Source: Polytrichum commune (Eukaryota > Streptophyta > Polytrichopsida > Polytrichales > Polytrichaceae). Taken from it: 64,000 nucleotides of DNA. Made by a program: the position numbers and the translations under genes. Under the pieces are notes generated by a model, which searched no databases, was not told the DNA's origin, and saw only the letters and a list, made by a program, of their open reading frames with translations. The stretch covers positions 3,904,001 to 3,968,000 of the forward strand of contig OX485809.1 in NCBI GenBank assembly GCA_950295325.1. Direction: 5' to 3'. Numbering within the stretch: position 1 is the first letter of the stretch; each line of letters starts with the position of its first letter. Shown in pieces: positions 28,601 through 63,789 of the stretch.

Positions 28601-31600
28601 GTAGGGCAAGGCCCTTCTGGTTGGGCTTTCAGGATATGAAGTGTAATCTCTGGGGGGAGGGGTCTTCATTTTTGGAAAGCCCTCCCTTTACCCTACATTT
28701 GGAGCTCCTTGTTTGAATAACCCAGATGCTCGGGACTCATGCATTGTGTTGACCTTGCTAGCATTTGCATCTTAGATCGATTATGGTTACATTATTTTTA
28801 TTTTATTTTTTCTTGCATGCTAATAATTACCTTTGGAAACCCTGCATTTAGAATGTTTCAAACAATTATCAACTAGGTTTTGGAGGATTTCTAAGAGGGG
28901 AGCTCGTGAAAGTGCTCTTAAGCATAATTAGGGCGTTGTCTCAAATAAAGTCTACATTGGGGTTAAATTTGCCTAATCTCTCTTGGTTTTCTTGTGTCGA
29001 AGTTGAGGTCTAAGTACACATGCTATATAACAATCTGCTTGAATCTTCTCATTGCCTTTGGAGTGTTGGCATTTGAGCATTAGTACTAATCATAAGGCTA
29101 TATCCACACTGACACCTATGATTGTGCTTTGTCATTTGCTAGAGTTCCATCTTGTTACAACTTTCTACTAAGAGTATCATTTTCTGTCAAGTTACTTTGT
29201 AAATTATGCTCCTTGATGTGCATACGAATTATTTATGTTATCTAGGTGAAATTATTACATCATTGGTAAAAAGTTACAACAACGTGTCACTTCTCCACAT
29301 GGTAACCACAATAATAGGTGTAGAAGGTGCAATTACTAACTTTGGAGTACTGGGTGCAGGACGGCCCGAGTTTGAGGGCCTCCCTTGTTTTCTTTTTGGG
29401 GAGTCAATGGGAGGAGCGGTGGCTTTGAAAGCGCATCTAAAAAACCCAAGCATGTGGGATGGGGCGGTTCTTGTGGCTCCCATGTGCAAGATTGCTGAAA
29501 CTATGTACCCACCATGGTATTTGGTCAAAATTATGATCGCGCTCGCCCACATCATTCCCAAGGCCAAGCTTGTTCCCAACAACAATATTGCGACTATTGG
29601 TTGCCGTGACCTGGAGAAGAGGAAAATTGTAAGTCAAATGTCAACAACTTCGAGACTTTAGTAAACAAAAAACACATACAGCTTGACTTTTATTAACCTT
29701 GACGAAGATTACCACAATTATTATCAGGTTCGACATAATATTTCAATGTTTCGAGGAAATGTGTCATTTTTGCATTTGGTGAGGACCCACAAATTCTCAT
29801 GTGATAATTATGTTTCGGTACTCCAAGTGTTGAACCAAACCATCGGCTCCAAGTATATGACCTTGGTTGGCATTTAACTTTTGATCGCGTTATGGTCTTT
29901 GTTAGATATATCTTTGCAATATATCGCAAATAACCAATCGAATCAGAAAAGTTTTGAGAGAAGTGGATACTAGAGTTATCCTTCAACTCAATGGGGACTT
30001 GTCATCAGAAGTCGGTCCCCCCATGATGTCTCGATGGTTGTTTGCATGCAAAAAAAAGTAAATGTCTTTCCACTTGTGGTGCACTCTTGGGGTAAGGGTT
30101 TGAAATTTGAATGGAAAACAACCTAGTCTGGTTTGTTAAGACCTCTAGATAGACCAAAATAAATTCAATTCTCAATGAACCAATATAGATTGTTCCAATC
30201 TTCAAACCTCCACAATATTTTCAAACATGTACCAAAAACTTACTATAGACGAAAGATGTTGTATGCGTAACAACCAATTCCCCATCAAAAGTCTTGTTGA
30301 GTTAAAGGATGACTCTAATATCACAAAAGCATATTCATCTTGCATAGGTAATCTAGGGTAAACCTGAAGGAGGCTTAATAGAAGCGATTTTGGAGTGAAT
30401 GGAATTCCTCTTGAAATCTAACTTGTGTGGTTTTTTTTTTTTTTTTTTTTTTTGCAGGCAAGTGTCAATCCGGTTGCTTATGTTGGGAATCCTCGTCTTG
30501 GAACGGCATTGTCTTTGCTCCAGACAACAGATGATATTGCGAGCAAGTTGCATGAGGTTAGATGGCCATATCCTAGCTATAAATGTTGGTACATGTTGAA
30601 GATTTGGTGTAATGATTTTTTTTTTGATTTTGAACATATTATATATGTGGGCCTTGTTACATTTGGGGGAAATTAGTGTGGGAAGCCTCATAAATGTATT
30701 TGGAAAATAAATAGTAGCAAACCATTGCGAGCAAGGGTGAAGGGTATGAAAGTAGAGGTGAGTAAGTATAAGTAGACTTGGTGATAGTAACAATCATTGA
30801 GAGCAATACTCTTAAGAACCGAAATTATATGGGCCTATCAAGTCGGGTGTGCATTTCTTGGACAGTCATGAGCATTGCCACTAAATTGAAGGATGCATTG
30901 GATGTCCAGTCAAGACCATCAATGTAGTATGTCTTGTCTTACTTTCTTGGGTAATCCATCGCTTTTTGCAAGCCTTTGCTTTATTTTTCGAACACAATCA
31001 TAATTTTGGAATTTTCTAGATTTTGCATGAACACGATGTAAGTTGTATGAAGGCAATAAAAGGCCTGAGGAATGCATAAGGTAAGAAGAAAGGAAGAGAG
31101 GGGGGGGGGGGGGAGGGAGAGGGTAGGTAACTTGTACTTGTTTTTGCTAGACAATTTGTACTTATCTTTCAAATGATGTGGCACCTCTATAAACTTTGTT
31201 TTTTCTGAACATTTCTAGGATGTTGTTAAGGGGCTCCATTATTGCATAACATTACTCAACAATGTGGGCCCTTGGAATATAACAATGGGTTGCTAGGAGT
31301 TCAGCGTGAATTTGAGTCTCCTTGTGTAGATTTTCGATCATCTCACTGTTATATTCCAAGGACCCAGAGAACGAGTGCCAAGTGTTGAGTAATATTATGT
31401 AGAAGTAGAAGTGAATTCACCTCTACTCATTCGATTAAGTAAGGCGGGCATACCCAAACCGAATACATAAATCAAAAGCATCACCATATACCAACTATCA
31501 TACATTTGAAGCCCCCAAATTTATGATTAAGATACTTAATGTGGGTTTTTAGGATTCAATGTTGGTTTTGGATATGCGTACCTCAGACTTGATGAATATA

Positions 31601-31995
31601 TTTGCAAACTGCACGACACATTCTGCTGAACTAAAAAAATTCCCTATTTGCTTGTGCAGGTCTCTTTACCAATGCTTGTTCTACACGGTGCGGCAGACCA
31701 AGTCACAGATCCATCGATCAGCAAAATTCTATTTGAGAAGGCCAAGAGCAAAGATAAAACAATCCAACTCTACGAAGACGCGTGGCATTGCCTCTTACTC
31801 GGTGAACCAGATGACGTTGTGAAGCGTGTCATGAAAGATATCATCAGCTGGCTTGACACCCACTCCAGATCCAAGTCCACAAAACCGGAGTCACAAACAT
31901 TTGAGCGAGAGTTGAGTGGGAAAAATTTGGAAGAGCGCGTCACAATTGCTGCAGAGACGCTCATCCGCTTTGGGAAACTCGAAGTCATTCAATAA
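25672..31995 (+). CDS. Monoacylglycerol lipase / caffeoylshikimate esterase-like alpha/beta hydrolase (7 exons)
   Basis: Predicted exons are 25,672-26,031, 27,412-27,447, 27,669-27,795, 28,043-28,189, 29,360-29,628, 30,458-30,556 and 31,660-31,995. All have GT/AG borders and compatible phases, giving about 457 residues. The product is a serine hydrolase that cleaves monoacylglycerols or caffeoyl-shikimate-type esters in plants. The oxyanion motif HGYGD is in exon 3, and DYPGHGLSEGLH is in exon 4. The nucleophile lies in GESMGG in exon 5, followed by VLVAPMCKI, typical of the plant family. The acid D is in HGAADQVTDP and the base H in DAWHCLL, both in exon 7. The first exon adds about 90 residues with a strongly hydrophobic LLLLVLLLAGALILF segment, a likely membrane anchor, which is longer than in many soluble relatives. 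Exon 1 and the 12-residue exon 2 are the least certain. Introns 4 and 5 hold dispersed repeats, and intron 6 holds a run of 14 G. Confidence 0.88.
26040..26960 (+). repeat. Five degenerate tandem copies of a ~205-bp unit in lipase intron 1
   Basis: Copies are centred on CATCGGCATGCATTG-like words at about 26,084, 26,287, 26,499, 26,713 and 26,914. Each is followed by a CCGAATACCTTG word and a GTTCTCCTCACGAGTCCTGC word. Spacings are 201-214 bp. A weaker sixth copy may lie at 27,230-27,300. The copies fall wholly within intron 1. Confidence 0.7.
28305..28512 (+). repeat. Dispersed repeat B, copy in lipase intron 4
   Basis: Shares blocks such as GGAGATTTTTGGGCATAAT, GGTTACATGTTG and TCAACTGGTTATTTC with copies near 38,676 and 53,905, and in reverse with one near 33,333. 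Coding potential is absent. Confidence 0.7.
29681..30316 (+). repeat. Dispersed repeat A, copy 2, with fold-back core (29,972-30,316)
   Basis: The core starts AGAGTTATCCTTCAACTCAA and ends TTGAGTTAAAGGATGACTCT, an imperfect inverted pair of about 20 bp. Inner blocks also mirror each other (AATGAACCAATATAGA against its complement in other copies). A non-autonomous, MITE-like fold-back element is the best description. It sits in lipase intron 5. The part 29,681-29,960 is shared with copy 1 and shows the repeat is longer than the fold-back. Confidence 0.65.
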
Positions 31996-48094: not shown

Positions 48095-51000
48095 TTACGG
48101 CGGTGCTCCTTGCGCCCATCTAGCGGCATTATTTAGCACTTTGTAATAATATTTGTCGATTTGTGTTCGGTTCGGCATTTGGGGTCGTTCCACCGTCGCT
48201 TCTCGTGGTTGGACCTCCCACTCTTCACGTTGCTGTAAATTCTCGCAATATTTGAAATACTCCCTTCTAAGCCATTGGCAATGCGGGACCCACGTTCCCG
48301 CCGCTTCATTTGGAAAATTTCGGCGTCGATTGTGTAGCTGATCGCGTACTATCCACAACTTGTGGTTGTGATTGCCTATCACCTGGATGATCTTATGGAT
48401 CACCCAGGACGTTTGCGCTTGAGGTTGGATTTCGCGCATGACTTGTTTGATCGAGGCCGGGATGGTTCCCATTATTCCAACCACCATCGCGCGGAACCGC
48501 ACGTCGCTATGCGGGAACCTGCGGCATAATACATCGACTAGCTCGTTGTACTTATCCGTTTTTTGCCGTTTAGCCAACGCGATTGCATTGTCCATCGTAA
48601 CCGAGATCTCCCATATCTCGATTTGATGGTTTCGTCGAATCATCTGCCCGTCGTCGCCTCGCCTCGCCGGGGGCTGATATTGGAATATTAAATCGGGCCT
48701 TCGACTTGCGATTTGGGTATCATTCAGGATGTCCGGGAATATTAGGGCGTTTTCTGCCGGAACGCCCCACGTATTCTCGGCCATCCAAATTTGGAACGAG
48801 TTTAGCCTCCCGAGTTTACCCTTCTCCGCTCGTAGTTTTATCCAACAGTAAAATTCACAAACTACCTTGTCGTGGCGTTTGGTGCGGATTGCCTCATATA
48901 ACGGATATCTACACCTGCAAAATAGGTGTTTGACCGTTTCTCTCTTCCGTTCCCGGCAGTTGTCACAGAAAATGTTACCGTGTCTCATCCAGGTTGTTAC
49001 TACCGATTTTACCGGTAGTACATTGAACGCCACAACGATCATCGTTTTGTATTCAGGCATGCTTAGGCTCGCGGTCCGGATCCATGTTCGACTTCCCGTG
49101 GCGTGGGCCCCACTATGCGCAAACTGCTTCGAGGCGATATTCTCGACAATTTCCAATCCGTCTCGATGGTGTACCGCCTCTTTCGTATACGCCTTCAGTT
49201 CTAACTTCGCCATTTCTAACTTCTTTTGCGCATTTGGACCCGTCACGTCGCTGAATAATCCAATGACTTTTACCCTTTCAAGCCCTTCGAGGTCCCCGTT
49301 GCGGATGTCCACCTTAAATGGGCTCTCCGCCGTGATTCTTACCCCTAGGGCTTGACATGCGTGGTATAAAAATGCCACGTAAGTCCGGTCTTTGCCCTTG
49401 CCCCGCCTTCCGATTTTACGCCTTGCCTTAGGGTCTGTCCGGGTTGGCTTCCAATACGCCAAACTTTTAGTCTTCGTATTCTTGTCGCGTACGGTGTTGC
49501 CGTACGCCAGGTCCCAGTCCATGAAAATCTTGCCTTGCAGGGCCCGCGGAATTCCAGCCGCCACGCGTGCCTCTTTCACCATATGCCGAAATAGGATTCG
49601 TATTTACGGGTCTAGATTGTTTACAAACGCGTACGCCGTATTTACCAACATTGAATCCCGTATTGTCCGGAAATTCGGTAACCTTAACCTGAGATGATCC
49701 GTGCTCATCTCGAATTGCCGTTTGCCCCCTCTTCGGGATGGCCATCCCAAAATCCGCCTCGCCACGCTGTGTTGGATCCTGGTTGCCTTGTCCAGGATGT
49801 AATTCGACGGCGGGTTCATCGGGCAAAGGATTTCTATCAACGGCCGCGCTGCCTGAGATAAGAAATCCAATTTGCCCGCGTAATGGAGCTTGTGGATGCG
49901 CGGGGTGTCTAATTGAGTCACCCTCGCCTTAAATTTGGCGAGGGCCTGCTTACCTTCGTGGGCCTCCCGACGTTCGTCATCCGGGCCCCGCGGCAACGAC
50001 GGCTTTTGATTGGTCTTTGCGGCTGCGGGGGCCTTATGTTCACCTAGATACTTAAAGGCTTCGTAACCCGCGAGCTGCGGGATTGCCTCGCCACAAAGGT
50101 TGAAGTTGGCTAGTTCCACATCTTCCCCTCGTCCCCGTACGAACTCCTGGCCCCAATACGCACATTTATGAATGCCGAAACGCATTCCCGATCACTCGGC
50201 GAATTCGCTTTGAATTGTCGTCATCTTACGTATTTTCTCCTCCGTATCGGCGACGCGCACTTCGTCATCTATATAATCCATTCATTTTACCTCGATTTCC
50301 GCTATCGCATATCCGCGGCATTTCCGTTCAATCCACTTCGCGACCGTTTCCTTAACGACCGCGAAGGTCAAAGGACTGATGGTATTACCTTGTGCTACCT
50401 CCCTCGTTATCGTAATCGTTTCTGATGCCTCGCCATTCACGATTAATCTTATTTGATTACCCGGTGTTGTCTCTTTCCACATGTTACGTAGAATCGGGCA
50501 GATGGGTAAAATGTCAATCGTTTTTACGATCAAACCGAAGGGTAGCGAGGTAAACGCCCCCTTAAAGTCGGTAAATAGGCAATATAGGTTGTTTTTCCTA
50601 TGCCTACTATCCTCCAAAACTGCCGTAAGTTTAAGGTTCGCATCCCGGCAGCCTGCCACTCTCGGATTTACCCCCATCTGAAAAGTAAAGGGCGTATGTA
50701 TATACGCCCCCCGAACCGTTTCCCGCATCGTCTCGTACGCCACGAAAATAATATACTTGCTGAAAATCTTAAAAAACACCGGCAATAAAATTACCGGCCG
50801 TAAATTTGGAGCTTGTGTATTTGGTGCTCCGGGTTTCGGGATATAGGACACGAATCCTAGCTTATAGGCTGGGTAGATTAAACCTAGTTTAGTCTGCAAG
50901 CTAAACGTGTGGATTAGCCACATTATGAGGGGCATCTTCTCGCATTGCCGTAAAGTCCGATACGTGATTTGATCGTATCCCGGCCCCCAGTTGCCATCAC

Positions 51001-51818
51001 CCTCTCGTAAAATCCGCCACAGCTTCTTTATTACTGGGTCATTTACGTCATTTTCAAGTGGCTCGATGCGGAACGGGGTCCTTGGCGCAACTTCATTCTG
51101 CCATAATGCCCTTAAATATTCGTCGCCCCTCGGGAACGAGGCGACTTGCTCCGCCGTTACAACTTCTCCCGTAAAACTGGGGCGGGCAAAGTCGTATAAC
51201 TCCGCCGTCGTGGCCTCCACATTGGCCCGACTCGCCCCCCCCCCCCTCGTACATCCAGCGGTGGAACTTGTGCACTGAGCCGATGTATCTTCGGTTCAAT
51301 GCGGCTTTACCTTCGCGGCGTAATCCGTTCACGGGGCGTTCGTCTTCGCGTGGCTCCTCTGCGTGGACCCCCCGCATTGACGTCGCCGGCCAGTGTTTTA
51401 CCGTCCCGAAGATTCTCGTTGCCGCTAGGTTGAGGGCCCACCATACTACCATGTCTACCTTCTCCCCTTTAATGGCATCCATTTCCCTTTCTGCCTTTGC
51501 CAACTGTTTAAGGCCATATTTAAATATGGCCTTAGTTACTCATTTGAACCGTTTCCGCATTTTTGGTTCAAAATTCTTTACCATCGCTGCCGGTCGAAAA
51601 CGTAGATCTTCAATGCTTTCATTATTCCGTAAGATCATTGCCATCTTCATCTTGAAGTCGGCAATGATTGTGTTATCATTTGTCATATCTCCTACTACCG
51701 GTTTTGTGGTCCATCTCATAGCCCGTCCAATTTGGCTATGTGTGGCCCGCCATTCCCTATTCTTGGACGTCCAGTCTCCCTCCCGAAGGTCGATCCGTGC
51801 TCTCTCCTCCGGTGTCAT
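48095..51818 (-). pseudogene. LINE ORF: reverse transcriptase + CCHC knuckle + restriction-like endonuclease, four stops and one frameshift
   Basis: About 1,240 codons run from ATG 51,816-51,818, which follows an in-frame TGA. RT signs are RPVILLPVFFKIF, catalytic Asp in LFTDFKGAF, REVAQGNTISPL, YIDD (about 50,270) and YEAFKYLGE in the thumb. The C-terminal part has C-x2-C...H-x4-C (starting CDNCRERKR), then RRPDLI, IEIWEIS and KTDKYNELV, matching the PD...E/D...K-x-x-K-Y layout of the restriction-like nuclease. In-frame stops lie at 51,540 (TGA), 50,282 (TGA, right before the YIDD segment), 50,192 (TGA) and 49,604 (TAA). A change of frame occurs at the run of 12 G on the coding strand (51,235-51,246). 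The protein otherwise stays conserved in style, so the copy died fairly recently. Confidence 0.85.
51235..51246 (+). other. C12 tract causing the LINE frameshift
   Basis: Twelve C on the plus strand. Upstream the protein continues in one frame up to HRWMYEGGG, downstream in another frame from the same point. Slippage of the run (one base gained or two lost) explains the break. Confidence 0.75.
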
Positions 51819-52089
51819 CTTACCTCATACCTACATCTCACTTTCTTTTGGTTAGTAATTTCCGCTTTTTACGCAACTACGCCTAGGTTGGTCCTAAGTG
51901 TACTCTCGCTAACCCCGCCTACTCCTAGGCTAGTTCAAGGTATCTCCTCAGTCTCGTTATGATTTCTCGCAAGTATGCGGTATCTATAACTTCGGTAATT
52001 CCCCACTTGTGGTAACTTGGTATTTCCCCTCGTGTGGTAATTTTTTCCGGTAACTCCCTCTTCTATTGTTTCCCCTTTGCCTTTGGTTT

Positions 52090-52450
52090 TGCTTCTTTCC
52101 CCTCCTTGTCCCTCATTCCTCCCGAAGGGAGGAATGAGTAACATTTTACCGTCCTCTTTGTCTCTATTGTTTCCCCTTAGCATTCTATCTTGCTTCAGTT
52201 TACCTCCTTTGCCTCATTCCTCCCTGCGGGAGGAATGAGTGGCATTTTACCTTCCTCTTTGTCTCTATTGTTTCCCCTTAGCCTTCTATCTTGCTTCAGT
52301 TTACCTCCTTTGCCTCATTCCTCCCTGCGGGAGGAATGAGTGGCATTTTACCTTCCTCTTTGCCTTTATTGTTTCCCCCTTAACCTTCTATCTTTGCTTC
52401 GTTTTACCTCCTTTACCTCATTCCTCCCGGAGGGAGGAATGAGGAGCCTT
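52090..52450 (-). repeat. ~101-bp tandem repeats, each with a perfect 12-bp hairpin, in the LINE 5' region
   Basis: Four palindromes CTCATTCCTCCC-NNN-GGGAGGAATGAG occupy 52,112-52,138, 52,213-52,239, 52,314-52,340 and 52,417-52,443. The spacings are 101, 101 and 103 bp. Loops are GAA, TGC, TGC and GGA, that is variable while the stems are identical. The intervening sequence is also repeated (TTTGTCTCTATTGTTTCCCC, TATCTTGCTTC and similar). They lie just upstream of the LINE ORF, as promoter monomers do in some LINEs. Confidence 0.9.
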
Positions 52451-52652
52451 TTACTAGTCCTTATGTTTATCGAAATTCCTCTTAGGGTGGCAACATTGTT
52501 AGTTGCTCCCTTTCTTATTCCTTTCGTAAATTCTCTTCCACCTCCCTTGATATCGTGAGCATATTAACCTCTCCCTCGGGTACGGGATGGTTCTACTTAG
52601 CGGGGCGTCTTTTCTTCCTCTTTGTTTAAGTGATTGTTGTTTTCATCGGCCC

Positions 52653-53108: not shown

Positions 53109-55008
53109 ACTGTAGAGTGATTTTATACAAGCATGAAAATTGATATCCCAATGTTTAACAAAAAAAAACACAATTTATTTCCAAGTTTTGAAATTGTTAT
53201 AAATTTTCAAAGGCAATTTTCTCTCCCAACCCATATATCACAACATAGGTGGACCTAATTTTTGATAATTGGGAGATGAAAACTTGAATACACTTAAAGC
53301 CCTTTATAAGGAACCCAAATTTGTGCCCTTTGACTTAATTTTTTCCTTCACATTGAATATGAAGGCTACATGTGTGATTCTTCACAGTTTTTTCCCATCA
53401 CAGTTTTTGCATAATATTAGTATGTATTCTTAATGCATCACTCATAGACATTATAAATCATACCACAAATTTCCAAATGGTGATGCATAATACAGTATTC
53501 ACCAAGTGGTGTAAAAACATGGAGAATAATAAATCTATTATGTTCATACATTATAATTCCATGTTGTAATAGTGAAAATTATTAAAATAAGCATTCTTTC
53601 ATTACAAACATAGTTAGGTAATTAGGATGTTATTTTATGTCTTATCATTTTGATTTTGATTATGTTGTCTTTGGAAGCTACCAAAGCGATAAGTGATACA
53701 TATTACACTACACTTGAAGGCATACAACTACACAAAATCCAATTTCAATTTTTCATGGTATAACCTTTGGATGAATTTTAAGGGCCCTCATAAATAACGA
53801 TTCCCTTTTTGAAGGCAAAAAAGACATATTAAAAAATATTAAAATGAAAATAAAATATTACATCATTTTAAAATGGATGAAACCACCAAAAACACCCCCA
53901 AAGCAGTGTTTGAGGAGATTTTGGACATAATCGTCATAATCCTAGTTGTTTTCAAGTCCAACGGGCTACATGTTGTGACCTTTTGAATTTTCTTTATTGA
54001 TTTGAAATATATTCCATAGATTCCTCTAAAATGATGGGTAATTTTCCTAGAGTCTTGACACAATTTTCATCTTCAACTGGTTATTTCTCAAACTCAACCC
54101 GTTCATTTGTAACTCCACTAAATATTGTATATAGTGTCACCAATTCTATTTGCCTTGTTCAATACTAATTATGGACTGCCTGCCTAGTGTCACCAACACT
54201 AAATTGGGCATTATAGATTTTAAATGTTGCAATTATTGTCACTTACTAAGTAAATTTTCATCCAATAAGTGATTGCACTCACTCATTCATGACAACATTT
54301 CATTACATAATTGATTTGGGTGCAAATATACCAAACTTTGTTTCCATAATTGACATTCGGATGAACTAAAAGTAAGTTGGGATGACAATATTGAGAAGTT
54401 TCATTAGACAAGTTACCGCAATGACATTATGACATAAAAGATTAATTTCCAGGTCAAATCTACATTTCCACTAAAATATGGTGGGCGAGTGACCTACATT
54501 GACTACCTAACTCTAAATACAATATTAAGTGTAGCAAGCAGCCGGTTCTTTCCTTTCCCCAAAATCATGAAATTGGATGATAATGCATATTATGGATGAA
54601 TATGCCCACGTCTGGATGAGATTCAAAGATATCATCCACATGTGGTTTCATCACTCCCAAATCCGTGTCTCCTTATAAGGGTTTAGGGTTTTAGTTCGGA
54701 GTTGGGATGCAATCTTCAGATGCGAGAGCCAGCAATGTTGGAGGAATAATTTTTTAATTCTATATCAACGAACTTAGTTCCACATTTGAGGGGGTTTTTC
54801 AAGGTCACATTTCGAACATCGCATTCTCTTTCACATCAATTTCTTCCTTGCTCGCTCCGTCCTTTTTCACTGTAGGTCAGTGGCCTGTACTACCTCGAGC
54901 TTTTAAATCCTTTCTAGCTCGACAAGATTGTTACTGCGTCCACTATCAGTTCTCGGTTGGATGCGTGTAGTCCAAAATTGAAAGGAGATGTCCAAAAGTT
55001 ATCAGGTG
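53109..55008. other. AT-rich spacer with a repeat B copy
   Basis: No gene is visible. Repeat B occupies about 53,905-54,118. The 3' end of the gypsy element's LTR should lie in or just before this stretch but is not recognisable. Confidence 0.45.
53905..54118 (+). repeat. Dispersed repeat B, copy 4
   Basis: Shares GAGGAGATTTTGGACATAAT, GCTACATGTTGTGACC and CATCTTCAACTGGTTATTTC with the 28.3-kb copy over about 200 bp. Confidence 0.75.
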
Positions 55009-55241
55009 TGTCGTGCACTACTACATCGTGTGCCAACCATATCGGGTCATGAGTGTGTGGTCGGCTTACTTGGCAATCCTGACTAGCCTAACAAGCTACT
55101 GCCTGGCATGCTGTGGTTCACATGCCATTCCAGACCATACTATGGTAAGTACAATACTGAAAATGAAAAAGAACTCAACAATAAGAAGCCCACAAGTACA
55201 CACCATGTATCCAATACAAGAGAGGCTCTCAGCCCTTTACT
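55009..55241 (-). repeat. Second copy of the 3' LTR head
   Basis: Identical by eye over 233 bp to 55,539-55,771, offset by 530 bp. Both copies include, on the minus strand, AGTAAAGGGC followed by TGAGAGCCTCTC. Confidence 0.85.
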
Positions 55242-55538
55242 AATGAATATGCAAATACAACAGGATTCACATAATACTAACTTGTCACAATAGAACCCGA
55301 CGTCAAATGTGCATGAATGCACTCCGTCAATGGAGACCAGATTAGGTCCTCGGAAGGCTCTACTTGTAAAAGATGAGCCCTTCCTTGACCTAACTGATCT
55401 AATGAGGTGAGAGAGAAGGATATAACTAGTTATGTTATAGCCCCATTCACACTACCTTAATGGTACTTCTCTACCTCCTAAGCAGAGCTAATGGCTATTA
55501 GGACGCTATAAGCTAACTACACCGTAACTCATGACAGC

Positions 55539-55771
55539 TGTCGTGCACTACTACATCGTGTGCCAACCATATCGGGTCATGAGTGTGTGGTCGGCTTACT
55601 TGGCAATCCTGACTAGCCTAACAAGCTACTGCCTGGCATGCTGTGGTTCACATGCCATTCCAGACCATACTATGGTAAGTACAATACTGAAAATGAAAAA
55701 GAACTCAACAATAAGAAGCCCACAAGTACACACCATGTATCCAATACAAGAGAGGCTCTCAGCCCTTTACT
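55539..55771 (-). repeat. 3' LTR head (starts TGAGAGCC at 55,761) with polypurine tract
   Basis: On the minus strand GCAGGGGGCGAGTAAAGGGC (about 55,781-55,762) is a plausible polypurine primer, directly followed by TGAGAGCC. The other LTR ends ...TTCTCA at 63,811, so TGAGA...TCTCA would be the LTR tips. The copy is repeated 530 bp further on. Confidence 0.55.
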
Positions 55772-55828: not shown

Positions 55829-58800
55829 TCAAGATGTAGCAGCTCCGGTACATCGAGGACACCTCCACGTGCCCCCCGGGATGTGTGATAGTGGGGGTGA
55901 CAGACATTGGGTGTGCCACCCCGTCGAACACTGATCACAAAGGATCATGGTCGCTGCTCCTTGAGCCCTGCCACAGAGCATACAACGGAGGCTGGCAGGA
56001 ATGGAGCCGAGAGTAGTATCGATGCGTCCATCGATGTGAGGCAGATGGCAAGGAGCACAATTGCGTGCATGATCCTTCCATATACGTCCATCTCTGCCCT
56101 CCAATTCAAGCACACCGCTAACCAAAACCTTCCTTACCCGTAAGATAATCCGTCCCGCAGTGATGTCCAGTGTCGTAGGTGCTGTTTGCTGTAGGTAGAC
56201 GTAATCTCCCTTAGCAAACCTCCTCAATTGCGGACGATAGCCCCCCCCACGTATGGTAGCATACCGTAAGGTATCTCGGTGTTGAGCAATGGCCAAGTTG
56301 TCGAATGCCATTGGCATGGCTTGCCGAAACAACTCCGCTCGCGCTTCGCACACTCGAATCCAAGTCGTGGGATCATCAAGATTCACTACCGTCTGCACCT
56401 CTCTCCGAATTGTTCCTGGAATCACAGGTTCCCTCCCGTACAAAAGAAAGTAAGGTGAGAAAGTGGCTAACGAAGCTTGTTTGCTAAAACAATAGCCCAT
56501 GGCTAGCCAAGGAAGTTGGGCATCCCAGTCTTGGTGATGGCCCTTCTGAACTCCATACTTTCGTAATCCTCGTTTTACTGTCTGCACCATCCGCTCCGCT
56601 AGCCCATCAGCTTCGGGATGGTCCCGGGACGTAGTCCTGTGGTCAATAAATGCCTGTTCACAGAGGGCTTGGAATTCCCCTTGGAATTCCCGACCCTGGT
56701 CAGTCAAGACCTCAGCTGGTGCTCCAAACCTGCTCAGTATCCGGTCCAATAGGGCATACGCCGCTCCTTCGCTTGACTTGTCCGGCAAGGCCACCAATTC
56801 GACCCACTTGGAGAAGTGTTCGATCATCACCAGCACATACTTGTTATGTCGCTTGGTGATGGGTAATGGTCCTGCAAAATCAACACCCCAGCGATATCCT
56901 AGACCCATAATTGGTAAAGGTTGCAAGATGGGAGTAGGAGCATTGAAGGATGCCCTTACCCTATCGCAAACCCGACACCGTGCCACGGTTTGTTGTACCT
57001 GTCCTTGCATACCAACCCACCAATACTGTGTTTGGAGTAGGCTATGTGTTCGCTTGACGCCAAAGTGGCCTAGCTCCTCATGAACCTGCTTCGTGAGCCT
57101 CTCACGCTCAAGTGGTTTGGGCACCACTTTTCTCCTCCCGTCTGAGAACACTCTGAGGAGCTGAGTACCCTCCCACGCAAACCGTTTTGCGCGTTGAGTA
57201 ATGCGGTCTCGCTCCTTAGGTGCAACACCTGCTGGGTACACAGAGTCCTGCAAGTAACTCAAGACTGGACCATCCTGGTGAATGTCCACGACGCCCCTAG
57301 ACTCCTCCTCACCCTCCCGTCCGTCGGTAGAATGGCTCGGGATGTCTCCTCGGTACGCCAACAAGCTGAGGCATGCCGCATGCCAGCTTGGGACTTCCGC
57401 TTCACCTTCACTCACATGCCATCGCGCACCCGTGGCGTCCTTCTGGCTTGGACATGGGTTGCGGCTAAGGCCGTCAGCATCCATGTTCACTAGCCCTGCT
57501 CTGTGTACAACCTTGAAGTCGTATTCCTGTAGCATCAACGCCCACCGCGCAAGCTTACCTGTGAGTTTATCGGACTCCATCAACCACCGAAGCGGTTGAT
57601 GATCCGTGACCAACAAGAATTCTGACCCGTACAAATAACATCTGAAGTGGGCAATTGCCCAAACAGCGGCCAAGCATTCCCCCTTGTAAGAGCTATACTG
57701 TGCCTCTGCATTGTTATTTGACCGGCTGGTGTATGCCACCACGAATTCTTGTCCTTTGTCATCCATCTGGGTCAAGACAGCTCCTATACCTAGCGTGCTC
57801 CAGTCCGTATGCAGTTGGTATGGTCTACCTGGTATTGGCCTCCTCAAGATCGGTGCTGATGCCAATCTTGACTTCAATTCCAGGAAAGCATCCTCCTGCT
57901 CGTCTCCCCATATCCAATCCTGCTCGGTCCTTGTGAGTAACGTTAGTGGTTTAGCAATCTTGCTGAACGATTGGACAAACTTCCGATAGTAATTTGCCAA
58001 TCCAAGAAAAGCTCTTAACCTACTAACATCACGAGGGCGAGGAATGCCATTCAAGGCTTCTATCTTACTGTTCATGACCCCAATGCCGCCTGGATATATC
58101 ATATGCCCTAGATATTCCACTCGGTTGTAGAAGAATCTACATTTACCCGGATGCAACTTGAGTCCATGTTGTATGAGTCTCTCCAACACCTGCCGCAGAT
58201 GTTCACGATGTTGCTTCCGGTTCTTGCTGAAGATGAGGATATCGTCTATGTAGCATTTGGCAAACGGTAAGCCTGCCAACACTCTATCCATCACTCGCTG
58301 GAATTCAGCTGGTGCATTCTTGAGTCCGAACGGTAGGAACTTCCACTGATAAAGTCTGTCCTTCCCAAACTCATCAATACCCCAGAAAGCAGTCTTCTGT
58401 TTGTCCTGCTCCCGAATCAACAACTGATGATAACCAGATCTCAGGTCCAAGGTGCTAAACACCTTTGCATGACCTATGGAATCGAAAATCTCCTCCGGTG
58501 TCGGCATTGCATACCTGTCTGATTTCGTCCGGTTGTTGAGGGGTCGGTAGTCTCCACACATGCGCTTCTCCGTCCAATTACCATATATGTCCTTCTTAGA
58601 AGGCATCACTGTGGCCGAAGCATACTCTCCGTTAGACATCTCCACTAGACCTACGTCCCACAGCTCCTTGGTGCGTGCCTGGATAAGCTTCTTCTCTGCA
58701 TCACTGTGCCTATATGGTTTACGGAATATCGGCGCATCGTCTGTCAAGTCAATTCTCACCTCTTCCCCCTTTAGCACTCCTAGGTCGTGGAGTCCGAACG

Positions 58801-58930
58801 CGAAGCAATCCTTGTGTTGTCGTAAGAACTGTCGCTCCTCCTGCCTCTCTGCATCCCCATCAAGTCCCACATCCGGCTCCCAGTTGTCTCCGATGACTGG
58901 TGGCTTGATCTCCTTCTCAGCAGAGGGCAT
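55829..58930 (-). CDS. Pol: RT, RNase H, integrase and C-terminal PHD finger
   Basis: An intact 1,033-codon stretch copies element RNA and integrates the DNA. RT has LDLRSGYHQL (D162), LPFGLKNAP and CYIDDILIFS (YIDD 227-230). RNase H has HTDWSTL (D376), YKGECLA (E418), VTDHQPL (D443) and MDADGLSR (D486). Integrase has an HHCC finger (H617, H622, C652, C655) and a DDE core (D684 in GVDFAGPL, D744 in LTDQGREF, E779 in DGLAERM). After the integrase C-terminal beta region a PHD finger follows (about 983-1028): CMLC...CDQC...GWHTQC...WRCPRC, a zinc module that usually reads histone H3 tails. Where chromoviruses carry a chromodomain, this element has a PHD finger. The ATG at 58,930 lies five codons after a UAG in the same frame, so translation may come by readthrough and not from this ATG. 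All catalytic residues seen are present. Confidence 0.92.
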   Translation of the reverse strand: MPSAEKEIKPPVIGDNWEPDVGLDGDAERQEERQFLRQHKDCFAFGLHDLGVLKGEEVRIDLTDDAPIFRKPYRHSDAEKKLIQARTKELWDVGLVEMSNGEYASATVMPSKKDIYGNWTEKRMCGDYRPLNNRTKSDRYAMPTPEEIFDSIGHAKVFSTLDLRSGYHQLLIREQDKQKTAFWGIDEFGKDRLYQWKFLPFGLKNAPAEFQRVMDRVLAGLPFAKCYIDDILIFSKNRKQHREHLRQVLERLIQHGLKLHPGKCRFFYNRVEYLGHMIYPGGIGVMNSKIEALNGIPRPRDVSRLRAFLGLANYYRKFVQSFSKIAKPLTLLTRTEQDWIWGDEQEDAFLELKSRLASAPILRRPIPGRPYQLHTDWSTLGIGAVLTQMDDKGQEFVVAYTSRSNNNAEAQYSSYKGECLAAVWAIAHFRCYLYGSEFLLVTDHQPLRWLMESDKLTGKLARWALMLQEYDFKVVHRAGLVNMDADGLSRNPCPSQKDATGARWHVSEGEAEVPSWHAACLSLLAYRGDIPSHSTDGREGEEESRGVVDIHQDGPVLSYLQDSVYPAGVAPKERDRITQRAKRFAWEGTQLLRVFSDGRRKVVPKPLERERLTKQVHEELGHFGVKRTHSLLQTQYWWVGMQGQVQQTVARCRVCDRVRASFNAPTPILQPLPIMGLGYRWGVDFAGPLPITKRHNKYVLVMIEHFSKWVELVALPDKSSEGAAYALLDRILSRFGAPAEVLTDQGREFQGEFQALCEQAFIDHRTTSRDHPEADGLAERMVQTVKRGLRKYGVQKGHHQDWDAQLPWLAMGYCFSKQASLATFSPYFLLYGREPVIPGTIRREVQTVVNLDDPTTWIRVCEARAELFRQAMPMAFDNLAIAQHRDTLRYATIRGGGYRPQLRRFAKGDYVYLQQTAPTTLDITAGRIILRVRKVLVSGVLELEGRDGRIWKDHARNCAPCHLPHIDGRIDTTLGSIPASLRCMLCGRAQGAATMILCDQCSTGWHTQCLSPPLSHIPGGTWRCPRCTGAATS

Positions 58931-58942
58931 CCGCCTTGGCTG

Positions 58943-58945
58943 CTA
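58943..58945 (-). promoter_or_regulatory. UAG with CARYYA readthrough context between methyltransferase and RT
   Basis: On the coding strand the stop reads TAG CAG CCA. UAG-CAR-YYA is the known leaky-stop context of tobamovirus-type readthrough. Gag, protease and methyltransferase end here, and pol continues in the same frame. The position is what a gag-pol expression switch needs. A simple CAG-to-TAG mutation remains possible. Confidence 0.45.
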
Positions 58946-59884
58946 CGCGATGCCCACGGATACAGCCTCTCTAGCTGCACCCGCCATACTCAACAGATCT
59001 CGTCTGTCGAATACGTATCCGCGCCAGTCCTCTGGTTCAGGGTTCTGGTTGTGGAACAACTCTTCCACGTACTCCATCAACGATTTGTCCCCCAACTCCG
59101 TTGCAAGTCCTGCCATTTGCTCCGCCTGTTGGTGTGGATAAAGGTAATCCTTCTCCCACCTATGCCACGGATGCTTTACCGGTCGTACGCCCCCAGCTAC
59201 CTTGACATTCATCCCGGAATTCAAGTAGCTTGACCACGCAATAGGTGATGCGTAGTGGCTAAGTACAGGCTCGCGCTGAGCATCAACATGATGTTGCTCT
59301 GCGGTAGCAATAGCCAAAAGCCATGTGACACAATTAAGGTCCATAGCTTGCCCCAAAAGGGCCCGTCGCTGCATCTCAGAGATGGGGATCCGCGGTACCT
59401 GTGTAGTCCCGGTGGGGAAGCCCATCGCTCGCTCCCGTTCATCAGCATTGGGTTCATCAGTGCTGTACTCCGCAGTACTGGTATCAACCACTGTACCTGG
59501 ACCATCCCCGCGAAAAGCGTATGACCTGGCAAAACTGAGAAACGTGGGGAAAGCCTCTCGGGGCCTTCCCAGCCGGTTAACAAGGGCATACGGACTCTTG
59601 TCATCCCACCTCACCTGTCGAGGTTGCCTGTTGGGGTCAAGAATATCTTGCACCAAAAGGTTGGGAGGCCGAAGAGTATGCGTATAAGCCGCTTGAAGTA
59701 CCTCGGTGGGGATGATGTTAGTCCACCATTGCCGATATCGGTGAGCACGGGAGCCGATTTGGGCAGCGTCTATAGACACTGACGGTCCCAATACGGTCTC
59801 AATCCGCTTAAGCCCTGCCAAATTCCGTGCACTGGACTCATTCACCACTGGTACATTCTCCACTAGATATCCGGGACCACTCGT
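58943..59884 (-). CDS. Methyltransferase C-terminal half (motifs VI-X) plus linker
   Basis: The stretch is in the same frame as the upstream gag-protease-methyltransferase ORF and separated from it only by the UAG at 59,885-59,887. It opens with motif VI (LVENVP), followed by SRAHRYRQWWTN (motif VIII, in the style of DNMT3's AAHRARYFWGN), ERAMGFPTGTT and RRALLGQAMDLNCVTWLL (motifs IX/X). About 115 residues of linker follow before the second UAG at 58,943-58,945. Nothing indicates a separate start, so on its own this half would be neither translated nor active. Confidence 0.8.
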   Translation of the reverse strand, partial: TSGPGYLVENVPVVNESSARNLAGLKRIETVLGPSVSIDAAQIGSRAHRYRQWWTNIIPTEVLQAAYTHTLRPPNLLVQDILDPNRQPRQVRWDDKSPYALVNRLGRPREAFPTFLSFARSYAFRGDGPGTVVDTSTAEYSTDEPNADERERAMGFPTGTTQVPRIPISEMQRRALLGQAMDLNCVTWLLAIATAEQHHVDAQREPVLSHYASPIAWSSYLNSGMNVKVAGGVRPVKHPWHRWEKDYLYPHQQAEQMAGLATELGDKSLMEYVEELFHNQNPEPEDWRGYVFDRRDLLSMAGAAREAVSVGIA

Positions 59885-62800
59885 CTACAACAATTGCAAC
59901 GTCCGAATGATTCGGATCATCTCCCCAAAGAGAGCAGTCCTCCGGTCTTGAAGACCGTTCTGGTTACCCGCCATGGACATGCCTTGACAAGGCCATCCTG
60001 CAATGACAAGGTCCACGCGTCCTAGTAACCTCAGCTGCACATCATCAACAAGTCGAATGTCATCAGAAAGAGCCGTGAAGCAACGCCTCGTGGCTTCACG
60101 GGGTAACAAGGTCGGGTATCGCTGCCTCAGCGTCCGAATGTGAGCCCTGGCTACCTTTCGTGCTACGGGATCTATATCCACGTACACATACCGTCGTATC
60201 TTGATGCCCGCCTGAAGAGTGGCCGCTAATCCGGTAGCAATACCACCAAACAACTCCAATAGACAAATGCCCTTACTAGAGGGCTTCCATGGAATGGGAG
60301 TAGTAAGGACGGGAGAGAGAAGAGGAATAAATTTTGTCGGCTTATACCGACTGACCCACTCCTTGTCAGTCCACACCTTGTGGATTACCTCTGCTGCTTG
60401 CCGATGCAACGCAGTCCCATCTGTCCATACTCGCGCAGCTCTGTTCACCTTAGCACGGTGGTGGTTGTCAAGAGCTGGATCTGTTGGTACTGTGAGAGGC
60501 TGACAAGCCTCATCCTCCGATGACCAATCTTCCGATCCTGCCATTGCAAACACACTATGAAGTCCTGGTTCGCCACGAATGAACTTCGTCGGTAACGTTG
60601 CTGTTCTCCCATCCCCGGCTTGCCAACCCGGCCGGTATGATGTAGTCTCGCTCCAGAAATCCATGAGAAATCCCATGGGATATAAGATTGTAGCACCCAC
60701 CAGCACGTCGTAAGACTCTGCTTGAGTAACTACAGCCTGAACCTTGATGGCGGATGAATCCATCACGTCATCAGGTTTAAACTTCACCACCAACGGTTGG
60801 GCCGTAAGGCCATAGGCCTTCTCAGATCCTCCCGTAGATGTATTGATGGTGAATGGACATACTTCCAATGTCCCCTTGGTAAGCCCTAGCCCTTCGATGG
60901 CTGCTCGTCCCAACATGAGAGGTTGTGCTCCCGAATCCAACAGTACCCGTGTTGGTGTGAAGACTTGTCCTGTAGGCCCAACCAACTGCACGACACCGTT
61001 CCCGTTGTCCACCATAACCACTCCGGGTGTAATGGAGGAACGTTCGATGGCTGGTCGCCTAGGCATTGTCTTCACGCGGGAGATGGCTGCACAAACATCC
61101 ATATCCGAGGAAGCCTCTTCCTCTTCGTAGTCCCCCTCTTCCACCATAGCCGCTATGGCGGTCGGGCCCTGGCCTTGTGGTTTACACACGGTGGCTGCCA
61201 TCTCAAAGATAGACGCCACATCTATCTCGAGACTAGTAAGTTGTTGTGCTGAAAATAGGGGCACCTGCAACAAGGCCTCAGCCACTGGTGCCACACCAGT
61301 TGCTGTTGAGGTCGGAACCACCGTTGGCGCCGTCGGAAGTGAACGCCCCCTGATTCTTCGCTGCAACAAAACAGGATTGGAAGCTGGAATATCTTCCAAT
61401 CCAAATGACTCCGGAAGTCTGACCTGCCTCCGAGCCTCACCCATCTGAGGATCCAGCACACTGTCGGCTCCCCTCGGCACATCTACATGTGTCTGAGCCC
61501 GTGTACTGACAAACCCATGCCGGTTGGGTTCACTGAACCCACAGAACCTGTCATCGACGTCACCGAGGAAAGAAGCCTCTTCCTTCCGCGCCGATGAATC
61601 CGTAACCTTCAGTGAAGAGACCAATGTGGCCAACTGAGCCTCAATTGTCCTCAGTCGTTCAGCATGCTTGCTAACCTTCTCCTTCTTGTCCATCGGTTTG
61701 TTCTTCTCCTGGTCTGATTTGATTCCTGCACCCTTGGCCGCCTTGGGCCGATCTCTCGGCTTAGACTGACCAGCAGGCCTCATCTCTGGATGTAATATCC
61801 AGCACTTCGCTGCGGCATGAGTCTTAGACCCACACTCCGAGCAAAACTTCTCTCTTCCGGCAGGGGAAGTAGACACATCCCCGTGTGCCGCTACTACAGC
61901 TTTGGGTTGCTTGGTTTTCTCCGTCAAAGCCTTCTTATGCAAGTTTGGTTGAAGTGCCTTCTCTTTGGCCAAGTTAATGGCTATGGCATCCGTGATCCTA
62001 AACACGGCTTCAAGAGTTGCGGGTTGGTCAATGGGCATACCCAACACTCTCCCTCGCACTAACTCCTTCAATTCGGCTTCTAGAATACCATACCAGTACT
62101 GGATCGATTGCGGAACCGTGATGCCTTCGGTGCTGTCCACCAACCGCCTCAGCCGGTGGTATGCGTCCTGATAGCTCTCCTTGTCCTTCCGAGAAAAATT
62201 CTGAAGCTCAACCATCTTGTCCAGCCTCTGACCTTGATAGTTAAGTTTCAGTAGGTTGAAGAACTCCGCGATGGGGTTGAAGGACGGTGGAGTACGACTG
62301 CTCACCGGAGGTCCCTTGTCCTTCTCGTCGGGAGATTCTCCACTGGTGGCTGCCTCAGCCGATATGATCCCACCGCTCCCTATCTGGCGTCCTCCTATCA
62401 GGATGGAACCTCCAAACAGGTTCTTGAAGTCAGGGGCCCAATGCCTCCTGAAGGCTTCAATTTCGTTGGGATACCTGGCCTCGAACTCCGCGAAATCTCG
62501 CATGGGAGCTCCCTCCAGATGTTGGAAGAGAGCTTGCCATGTGCTGAAGGGTGTAAACCCTGTTCGCCGTTCTGACTGGCCGTTACACCATCCCCCAAAT
62601 TCGATGATGAAGTCATCCAATTCGATGGTGCCTACTACTCCGGAGAAACGTCGTATGCCCTTGCTGGCACCGTAGATGTGGGCCATCTCCTCGTCACTAC
62701 CGTACGATTCGGACCACCCTCCGGGCTCCTCAGGGTCTACGTCCGCTTCCTCCCTTGTAGCTAATCCAGGGATAGAAGCCTCTTCTTCCCCTGGATCTGG

Positions 62801-62920
62801 GAGCTCCTGCTCCTCAACCTCTACCTCCTGATCACATAGGGATTCCGCCTCGGTAACCTCGGTAACCTGGTAGGGTCTTCCACTGCGAGTGATCCCTCCA
62901 ACTGTCTCCAGCTTGATGCT
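59885..62920 (-). CDS. Gag, aspartic protease and N-terminal half of a C5-cytosine methyltransferase
   Basis: The frame is open from 62,920. The first ATG is 62,686, giving 933 codons to a UAG at 59,885-59,887. Before the ATG the frame encodes an acidic stretch with ITRSGRPYQ, so real translation may begin further upstream. From the ATG: gag (about 1-260) with a CX2CX4HX4C zinc knuckle (C282, C285, H290, C295), a linker, a retropepsin-type protease with LLDSGAQ (D584), and about 140 residues further on a methyltransferase. Motif I is LLELFGGIATGLAA (809-822). Motif IV is AGWPCQGMSM with catalytic Cys 900, followed by GLQDRRTALF. The motif order (I-IV-VI-X) is conventional and unlike plant DRM enzymes. 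FGGIATGL resembles DNMT3's FDGIATGL. The UAG cuts the enzyme between motifs IV and VI. Confidence 0.88.
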   Translation of the reverse strand, partial: SIKLETVGGITRSGRPYQVTEVTEAESLCDQEVEVEEQELPDPGEEEASIPGLATREEADVDPEEPGGWSESYGSDEEMAHIYGASKGIRRFSGVVGTIELDDFIIEFGGWCNGQSERRTGFTPFSTWQALFQHLEGAPMRDFAEFEARYPNEIEAFRRHWAPDFKNLFGGSILIGGRQIGSGGIISAEAATSGESPDEKDKGPPVSSRTPPSFNPIAEFFNLLKLNYQGQRLDKMVELQNFSRKDKESYQDAYHRLRRLVDSTEGITVPQSIQYWYGILEAELKELVRGRVLGMPIDQPATLEAVFRITDAIAINLAKEKALQPNLHKKALTEKTKQPKAVVAAHGDVSTSPAGREKFCSECGSKTHAAAKCWILHPEMRPAGQSKPRDRPKAAKGAGIKSDQEKNKPMDKKEKVSKHAERLRTIEAQLATLVSSLKVTDSSARKEEASFLGDVDDRFCGFSEPNRHGFVSTRAQTHVDVPRGADSVLDPQMGEARRQVRLPESFGLEDIPASNPVLLQRRIRGRSLPTAPTVVPTSTATGVAPVAEALLQVPLFSAQQLTSLEIDVASIFEMAATVCKPQGQGPTAIAAMVEEGDYEEEEASSDMDVCAAISRVKTMPRRPAIERSSITPGVVMVDNGNGVVQLVGPTGQVFTPTRVLLDSGAQPLMLGRAAIEGLGLTKGTLEVCPFTINTSTGGSEKAYGLTAQPLVVKFKPDDVMDSSAIKVQAVVTQAESYDVLVGATILYPMGFLMDFWSETTSYRPGWQAGDGRTATLPTKFIRGEPGLHSVFAMAGSEDWSSEDEACQPLTVPTDPALDNHHRAKVNRAARVWTDGTALHRQAAEVIHKVWTDKEWVSRYKPTKFIPLLSPVLTTPIPWKPSSKGICLLELFGGIATGLAATLQAGIKIRRYVYVDIDPVARKVARAHIRTLRQRYPTLLPREATRRCFTALSDDIRLVDDVQLRLLGRVDLVIAGWPCQGMSMAGNQNGLQDRRTALFGEMIRIIRTLQLL

Positions 62921-62927
62921 TCAAGCC

Positions 62928-63635
62928 TTAAGGAAGATAGTAATTCCACGCAACGTGTGATCCAGGCTTAGCCGGTTGGTAGATAGTCTCCGCTATCTCG
63001 TAATCCACCCGCTCGCCGGAAGAAATGTCAATTGCTGTAGCTGCCCTCTCCAACCAACCTGTGAGTTCTTTATGCCAAATAGAGCAAAAGGAATAATTCT
63101 CACTTCGGAAATCGGAAAACACGAGGGAATACAAGGGTAAGTTAAGAAACTCTGCCCTGGATACCCACTCAGCGCGTGATCGTAATCCCTGGTTCTTGAC
63201 CGTCAACACCTCTCCTTCGATGATGAAATCTCGGAAGTTTACGAAGCCCCGTTGTCTTGGCTTCAGTGAGATGTATGTACGTCGAGTGTCCTTGAGAGTC
63301 TGCAAACAATTAAACCCTGGGCCGTGACTCCAGTAGTCTATGGACTTGGGTCCAAGTACCTTGGTGCCTGGTTCGGCAAATCTCTGCCGTCCCAACCTGG
63401 ATTCTGCTAGAGATGACAGAACAAACGTCGCAGATGTAAGAGTAGGAAGAGTTACCGTCGGTGAGTTGTCCCTCGGAGTTGCCTCAACCCCAACCAATTC
63501 ACTCCCTCCGGTGAGTTGGACAGTAACCTCCACCTGACGTCCTTCCAGTTCCGGGTAATCTCCCCCAGACACTTCTCCGCGAATTCTGACCTTCTGTAAT
63601 CTTTTAGTCAATTCTTCAGCACTTGTGCCAACCAT
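62928..63635 (-). CDS. Retrotransposon ORF1, 235 aa, unknown function
   Basis: The ORF begins MVGTSAEELTKRLQ and ends AWNYYLP-stop, eight bases before the gag frame opens in a different phase. The sequence is not low-complexity. The first 90 residues are rich in Val/Thr/Gly, the middle carries SIDYWSHGPGFNCLQTL and RGFVNFRDFIIEGEVLTV, and the end has WHKELTGWLERAA. I recognise no family. It lies between the 5' LTR and gag, where most gypsy elements have only a leader. It could be an N-terminal gag part split off by a frameshift, or a separate accessory protein. The stops at the end of ORF1 and just before gag rule out a simple overlapping frameshift as the sequence stands. Confidence 0.6.
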   Translation of the reverse strand: MVGTSAEELTKRLQKVRIRGEVSGGDYPELEGRQVEVTVQLTGGSELVGVEATPRDNSPTVTLPTLTSATFVLSSLAESRLGRQRFAEPGTKVLGPKSIDYWSHGPGFNCLQTLKDTRRTYISLKPRQRGFVNFRDFIIEGEVLTVKNQGLRSRAEWVSRAEFLNLPLYSLVFSDFRSENYSFCSIWHKELTGWLERAATAIDISSGERVDYEIAETIYQPAKPGSHVAWNYYLP

Positions 63636-63789
63636 CCTGTATATGACTATCCATGAACAAGTGCTTATGTTCTACCGTTCTCTATTCGATTCTACACGCG
63701 GAGGGATGGATTTTACTTAATCGGTGAGGTGTTATCCTTATAACAACCGTCCCAATCTGGGTTGGCATAGGGTGTCTCTCCCTGAGTAC

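Follow-up and report, generated by a model that had tools for sequence, protein, structure and literature searches.

DNA methyltransferases (DNMTs) carried by retrotransposons are already on record: a 2025 survey placed DNMT3 members inside retrotransposons of streptophytes and dinoflagellates (PMC12344493), and de Mendoza 2018 (PMC5890265) described Ty3 elements of Klebsormidium that bear a DNMT and DIRS-like repeats. The latter study also reported SymbioDIRS-Dnmt3, whose DNMT methylates CG in yeast. Here we describe a Ty3-type retrotransposon with a DNMT3-like domain in a 64,000-nucleotide stretch of Polytrichum commune (assembly GCA_950295325.1, contig OX485809.1, positions 3,904,001 to 3,968,000 of the forward strand), hereafter the window. 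The original prediction for this DNA, covering 58943-62686, proposed a Ty3/gypsy element with a C5-cytosine DNMT between protease and reverse transcriptase (RT), and Pfam matches and motif order bore this out. Its pointer to the retrotransposon-borne DNMTs of de Mendoza 2018 was likewise correct (PMC5890265). It missed two in-frame TAG codons, the place of the DNMT in the Gag-Pro open reading frame (ORF), and an A-coding-B-A-B repeat arrangement in place of ordinary long terminal repeats (LTRs).

The family to which the window copy belongs is most like KnitGypsy-Dnmt3 of Klebsormidium nitens, with which it shares Ty3/Gypsy domains, a DNMT3-related domain, DIRS-like repeats, and purifying selection on the DNMT (PMC5890265). 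The DNMT of KnitGypsy-Dnmt3 is assigned by its authors to the Pol polyprotein ORF, whereas in the window family it sits in the Gag-Pro ORF, set off by a UAG-CARYYA stop. The window family further has a PHD finger at its C-terminus and target duplications of 4 bp; readthrough and a PHD finger go unmentioned in the main text of the KnitGypsy-Dnmt3 paper (PMC5890265). SymbioDIRS-Dnmt3 has a DNMT3-type enzyme and A-coding-B-A-B repeats as well, but a tyrosine recombinase and a DIRS-type RT (PMC5890265), where the window family has a DDE integrase and a Ty3-type RT. Relatives of pol from K. nitens were found, and one of them (P0097) has a PHD finger; no relative of the DNMT carried a K. nitens name, though most matches are unnamed.

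The element lies on the minus strand and is 9,780 bp long, with its initial 0.8 kb extending past the window end (to 64788). Its parts run A1, 5′ leader, ORF0, gag-protease-DNMT, TAG, RT, RNase H, integrase, PHD finger, B1, A2, B2. Four minus-strand ORFs of 247, 1011, 313, and 1037 codons correspond to ORF0 (62928-63671), the start of gag-protease-DNMT (59885-62920), the DNMT remainder with motifs VI-X and a tail (58943-59884), and pol (55829-58942). The last three ORFs share one reading phase, as had been claimed for the frame from gag-protease to RT, but that frame is not open, being interrupted by TAG codons at 59885-59887 and 58943-58945. Pfam matches in the pol ORF were RVT_1 (1e-31), RNase H, rve (2e-14, with an H2C2 motif), and PHD (1e-9), and this order of RT, RNase H, and DDE integrase with Ty3-type domains is that of a Ty3/Gypsy Pol. 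None of the four ORFs scanned had a match to the tyrosine recombinase family PF00589; the integrase is rve. Upstream, the gag zinc knuckle CX2CX4HX4C is at 61802-61843 and an aspartic protease is marked by the DSGA motif at 60926-60937, its Pfam matches being weak and below the Pfam cut-off.

The DNMT domain spans 59294-60298. Its match to Pfam DNA_methylase was 2e-10 for the first piece and 5e-12 with the domain read through (X at the stop); the C-terminal piece by itself matched no Pfam family. When the window copy is read through in this way, motifs I (60250-60230), IV (GWPCQG with the catalytic Cys, 59981-59998), VI (ENVP, 59860-59849), VIII (RAHRYR, 59749-59732), IX (GFPTGTT, 59422-59402), and X (GQAMD, 59353-59339) occur on the minus strand in the correct order, as originally described, and the predicted fold is the full DNMT3-like catalytic fold. 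By sequence and predicted fold, then, the domain is DNMT3-like. No DRM or CMT entry was among the best 50 rows of the VIA-align listing, which is no test of DRM/CMT kinship. The TAG at 59885-59887 falls between motifs IV and VI, and because of it the window copy's DNMT is broken. None of the 19 other copies examined, which were chosen for long frames, has this stop. We rejected it as a family trait; four other DNA_methylase matches have an internal TAG, all at different codons. With a broken DNMT and a second stop before pol, the window copy is probably mobile, if at all, only with the help of other copies.

Such copies are numerous. The host genome comprises 408 Mb in 64 contigs, nearly all of it in seven contigs of 42-78 Mb, and across these seven we found at least 123 DNA_methylase matches (123 scored of 352 candidates), all above the cut-off. 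Many lie in frames of 1,350-1,386 codons that stay open across the match; the frame of the window copy has 1,325 codons and one TAG. In all 19 of the other copies examined, more long ORFs come after the long methyltransferase ORF. The window element itself stands alone in its genome, its next gag-protease-DNMT relatives there being 31-41% identical (45 scored of 702 candidates), and the nearest pol found belongs to a metagenome protein (P0039, 93% identical). It is possible that the element is a recent, perhaps horizontal, arrival from elsewhere, or that it represents a nearly extinct lineage; both fit these identities.

The second stop, at the junction of DNMT and pol, is family-wide. In the window it reads TAG-CAG-CCA (58937-58945), and a TAG is present in 118 of 118 alignable host junctions out of 123 examined; the remaining five (L054, L063, L071, L073, L107) may be cut copies or native genes. 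In 114 of the 118 it has the tobacco mosaic virus (TMV)-type context UAG-CARYYA, and the other four are one base off. The hexamer after the TAG is CAATCA (49 copies), CAATTA (1), or CAACCA (1) in the subfamily that we call STD, CAATTA (45), CAGTTA (16), or CAATCA (1) in the SSH subfamily, and CAGCCA in the window copy. The two subfamilies are near synonymous saturation, with dS of about 2 to 3 in most parts, yet the hexamer stays within CARYYA in all but those four junctions. Pol continues directly after the stop in the same phase in the window copy and the majority of the long-frame copies (L013, L020, L025, and L028 being exceptions), and the Marchantia proteins P0159 and P0160 likewise terminate shortly after the DNMT, so far as sequence can date it a sign that the stop may be older than the host's subfamilies. 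Because a stop with a readthrough context separates the DNMT from RT, we predict that the DNMT is made at the dose of Gag and RT at a small share of it. Among plant elements, SIRE1 has a leaky stop, and we know of no DNMT in SIRE1 or in leaky-stop rice gypsy elements. Those rice gypsy elements have been named as readthrough candidates and resemble the window family in that a stop is bypassed for the downstream part (PMC2754532, citing RIRE2 work). The same source reports UAG-CARYYA to be essential for readthrough in TMV (PMC2754532).

Selection was compared between nine STD and four SSH copies, since comparisons with the window copy were mostly saturated. The ratio of nonsynonymous to synonymous change (dN/dS) was 0.116 for the DNMT and 0.124 for gag-protease, 0.042 for RT-RNase H, 0.037 for integrase, 0.067 for the PHD finger, and 0.63 for the tail after the DNMT. 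Within SSH the DNMT gave 0.17 on a dS of 0.13. As judged from these substitutions, the DNMT is under purifying selection between subfamilies.

The ends of the element have an unusual layout. Repeat A1 (64494-64788, beyond the window end; locus L009) and repeat A2 (55242-55536) have no differences over 295 bases, and B1 (55539-55771) and B2 (55009-55241) are identical over 233 bases; with zero differences over 528 repeat bases, the insertion is young. The repeats are split, as in DIRS elements, and the coding part is not flanked by two full LTRs. The element begins TGTCA and ends CGACA, which is the TG..CA type, and is bordered by the target duplication CACC (55005-55008, matched at 64789-64792 in L009). 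Among 20 copies (the 19 others and the window), all 13 that could be tested have a target duplication of 4 bp without mismatch; the untestable ones were L015, with an unresolved 3′ end, four without 3′ repeats in the sequence covered, and two without a 5′ repeat. B1 directly follows the polypurine tract (PPT)-like GCAGGGGGCG, and of 15 copies compared, 14 have a G-rich tract immediately ahead of B1. At the joint of B1 and A2, the palindrome GACAGCTGTC (55533-55542) consists of the two element ends joined by GC (CGACA-GC-TGTC), an arrangement also found in 15 of the 19 other copies. Most copies within a subfamily have one and the same A2-B2 joint.

Taken together, the palindrome, the TG..CA ends, and the target duplications suggest an integrase acting on a circle-like intermediate. 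By analogy with other Ty3 elements, an RNA starting in A would, under ordinary reverse transcription, give terminal repeats of B+A. From the sequence of the joints we infer that the integrated form is a two-repeat circle cut at the palindrome rather than at the joint between repeats, with two bases lost as they would be by integrase. HIV-1 integrase has been found to cut its own 2-LTR palindrome in vitro (PMC1905944). The competing account has reverse transcription produce linear DNA of the A-coding-B-A-B form straight away, by DIRS-like templating, and has this DNA integrate by its ends, so that no circle is ever opened. We regard it as a real contender with somewhat less than an even chance. 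The constant A2|B2 joint is what a templated joint would give, but standard Ty3 reverse transcription with a PPT-like tract before B1 would yield a B+A terminal repeat, and two ends plus GC at the B1|A2 joint are as expected from a circle or an end-to-end joint.

The PHD finger (about 55850-55984) was part of the original prediction, although it lies outside the interval that this covered. Its nearest solved relative is a PHD finger of KDM5A (5.6e-15), with CHD4, PHF12, and KDM5B next to it. KDM5A PHD1, CHD4, and PHF21A bind histone H3 tails without K4 methylation, and this analogy suggests that the finger may tether the element away from active promoters. Chromoviruses, which are Ty3 elements with a C-terminal chromodomain, similarly have a chromatin reader after the integrase; the window family differs from them in its PHD finger in place of a chromodomain, its split repeats, and its DNMT.

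We therefore propose the following, to which we give a probability of about two in three as a whole. The window holds a young copy of a Ty3-type element whose DNMT is part of the Gag-side protein. Most ribosomes would halt after the DNMT to give Gag-Pro-DNMT, and a minority would read through, adding RT, integrase, and PHD finger. The DNMT would be packaged at the level of a structural protein, freed by the protease, and would, no later than the integration step, methylate the double-stranded DNA of the element itself. The integrase would open a circle-like form at the internal palindrome GACAGCTGTC and insert the opened form, with the PHD finger tethering the integration complex to H3K4-unmethylated chromatin. 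A broader conjecture, which we consider doubtful, is that DNMTs travel with retroelements that integrate as circles or end-joined forms: a Gag-level DNMT would mark unintegrated DNA as self and pre-silence it so that it is tolerated, while the integrase would cut GACAGCTGTC and the PHD finger would steer to H3K4-unmethylated chromatin. DIRS elements carry Dam-like methyltransferases (cited in de Mendoza 2018, PMC5890265), and DIRS-like repeats are common to these, SymbioDIRS-Dnmt3, KnitGypsy-Dnmt3, and the window family.

Other accounts of the DNMT can be set against this proposal. The enzyme might instead act in trans on the host, with host loci, rival elements, or the targets of host silencing as its substrates and not the DNA of its own element. 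High copy number and a predicted Gag-level supply would provide much enzyme, and host effects have been discussed for Symbiodinium (de Mendoza 2018, PMC5890265), but fusion to Gag-Pro predicts confinement to particles and selection on the DNMT resembles that on gag-pro, as for a particle part; we find this unlikely. That the domain is a non-working passenger, or a nucleic-acid-binding part of Gag, is a good deal less plausible still. The window copy's DNMT is indeed split by a stop and the Pfam match covers only part of it. Against this, in long-frame ORFs where GWPCQ was a selection criterion the ENV, AHR.R..W, and GQAMD-type motifs are kept in 20, 19, and 18 of 20, the dN/dS of the DNMT is low, and the predicted fold is complete. 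An assembly chimera, or a host gene beside a retrotransposon, has practically no chance of being right: we found no point in its favour, and other genomic copies refute it, with the matches spread over seven large contigs, the DNMT-TAG-pol junction common to 118 of them, long ORFs after the methyltransferase ORF in all 19 of the long-frame copies, and relatives in Marchantia and metagenomes.

For the stop, bypass by splicing or by a separate RNA would replace readthrough. Ogre elements bypass a stop in one of these ways, and the Marchantia gene models P0002, P0112, and P0115 span the DNMT into RT, perhaps over an annotated intron. The hexamer, however, varies only within CARYYA across three lineages, four of 118 excepted, and outside the four copies named above pol follows the stop in phase; such a bypass seems improbable. 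Several observations do weigh against our own proposal. The 118 junctions represent three lineages only and are not independent, and the six bases are also coding. Related proteins P0011, P0064, and P0083 hold DNMT and RT in one frame, so not every relative follows the readthrough layout. Motif counts and selection were based on 20 ORFs picked by length and GWPCQ, and within STD the DNMT dN/dS was 0.60 on a dS of 0.02, from very few changes. Inspection by eye revealed no ordinary tRNA primer site following A1. The Klebsormidium Gypsy DNMT showed no activity in yeast, a result that the authors of that study judged inconclusive (PMC5890265). Last, young copies (11 STD and 7 SSH, or 18 of the 19 others, with L025 left out) have an excess of C-to-T changes in CG, CHG, and CHH on both strands. 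Because a control of four copies of a long interspersed nuclear element (LINE) over 1.5 kb has an excess of the same shape, though weaker, this is not specific to the element and does not point to self-methylation. The original prediction had suggested that the element may write CG or non-CG methylation and perhaps thereby evade or adjust silencing by the host. The observed/expected CpG ratio is 0.71 in the element, not below the 0.61 of the rest of the window.

Named relatives come from Marchantia, Calypogeia, Riccia, Sphagnum, and Klebsormidium, and others from metagenomes; no relative of pol was found on viral contigs. The DNMT occupies two positions among them, either between protease and RT or between RNase H and integrase. 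In a DNMT tree of 68 rows, the 46 RNase H-integrase rows form one group (SH-aLRT support 99) with the protease-RT rows as the remainder, and the rows nearest to the window DNMT are from Marchantia. This tree was made by a quick method and has some long branches; its outgroup was confined to DNMT3A fragments, these standing in for native enzymes such as Dnmt3, DRM, DNMT1, and CMT. Rows P0003-P0010, with an ORF that stops behind the DNMT, were placed in the pre-RT group and P0015 in the pre-integrase group by manual assignment; rows lacking a visible RT ahead of DNMT-integrase were treated as pre-integrase, and domains under 240 residues were dropped. In an RT tree of 133 rows, 49 pre-integrase rows and two rows with no DNMT seen form one group (99); 68 of the 133 show no DNMT in the same protein, and their elements may either lack one or carry it in another ORF. 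The two orders may reflect one positional switch or two captures of related enzymes, as far as these trees indicate.

Among relatives of the RNase H-DNMT-integrase order, P0012, P0019, P0022, P0023, P0119, and others have a C-terminal domain with LDPWAGxG and TSPxF after the PHD finger. By these motifs it resembles an amino-methyltransferase, which would perhaps put two methyltransferases in one polyprotein. Thirteen Marchantia gene models annotated as host proteins resemble gag-pro-DNMT ORFs of these elements (P0002, P0112, P0159, P0160, P0166, P0167, P0170-P0172, P0174, P0188, P0191, P0196), and the UniRef name of P0160 starts ‘DNA (cytosine-5’. Counts of DNMT genes in liverworts may thus take in genes of elements, such as P0160, that bear a host-gene annotation.

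The extra 5′ ORF of the original prediction, ORF0 (247 codons from stop to stop), is present, but we rejected it as a family trait. Its sole match in the host genome is itself, it had no match among 57 ORFs (70 codons or longer) from the 5′ regions of the 19 other copies or among 206 relative proteins, and it has no Pfam or NCBIfam family. Judging from these searches, it is possibly captured or private to the window copy. The 5′ leader of the STD subfamily has tandem repeats about 144 bases apart (L010, L011, L013-L020, about 1186-1620). Elsewhere in the window, a LINE-like stretch on the minus strand (48098-51539) has an RT match (PF00078, 1e-7) and a weak zf-RVT match, and about 1.2 kb from it is a large-subunit rRNA fragment (Rfam RF02543, 52760-52852, minus strand). 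Three further copies of one LINE ORF were found at 93-94%. At 52062-52467 a 101-bp unit occurs four times in tandem, with 64-78% similarity to its first copy, and exon-like pieces of an alpha/beta hydrolase (Hydrolase_4; 29203-29658 and 31630-31992, plus strand) probably belong to a host gene.

Retrotransposon-borne DNMT3-type enzymes were known already, including in Gypsy elements with DIRS-like repeats. What appears new relative to the literature that we searched is a DNMT on the Gag side of a readthrough-type stop, along with the 4-bp target duplications, the PHD finger, and the two domain orders. That search, with subscription papers largely outside it, returned no title or abstract describing a liverwort DNMT element combining readthrough, split repeats with a DDE integrase, a circle palindrome, and a PHD finger. 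An element that makes a silencing enzyme in structural amounts would invert the common view of methylation as something that hosts direct at transposons. Why the element carries a DNMT can be approached directly through the readthrough dose, through the palindrome, and through the PHD finger, and the question can be addressed in living material, since the family has many copies in a plant genome assembled to chromosome scale and also occurs in Marchantia.

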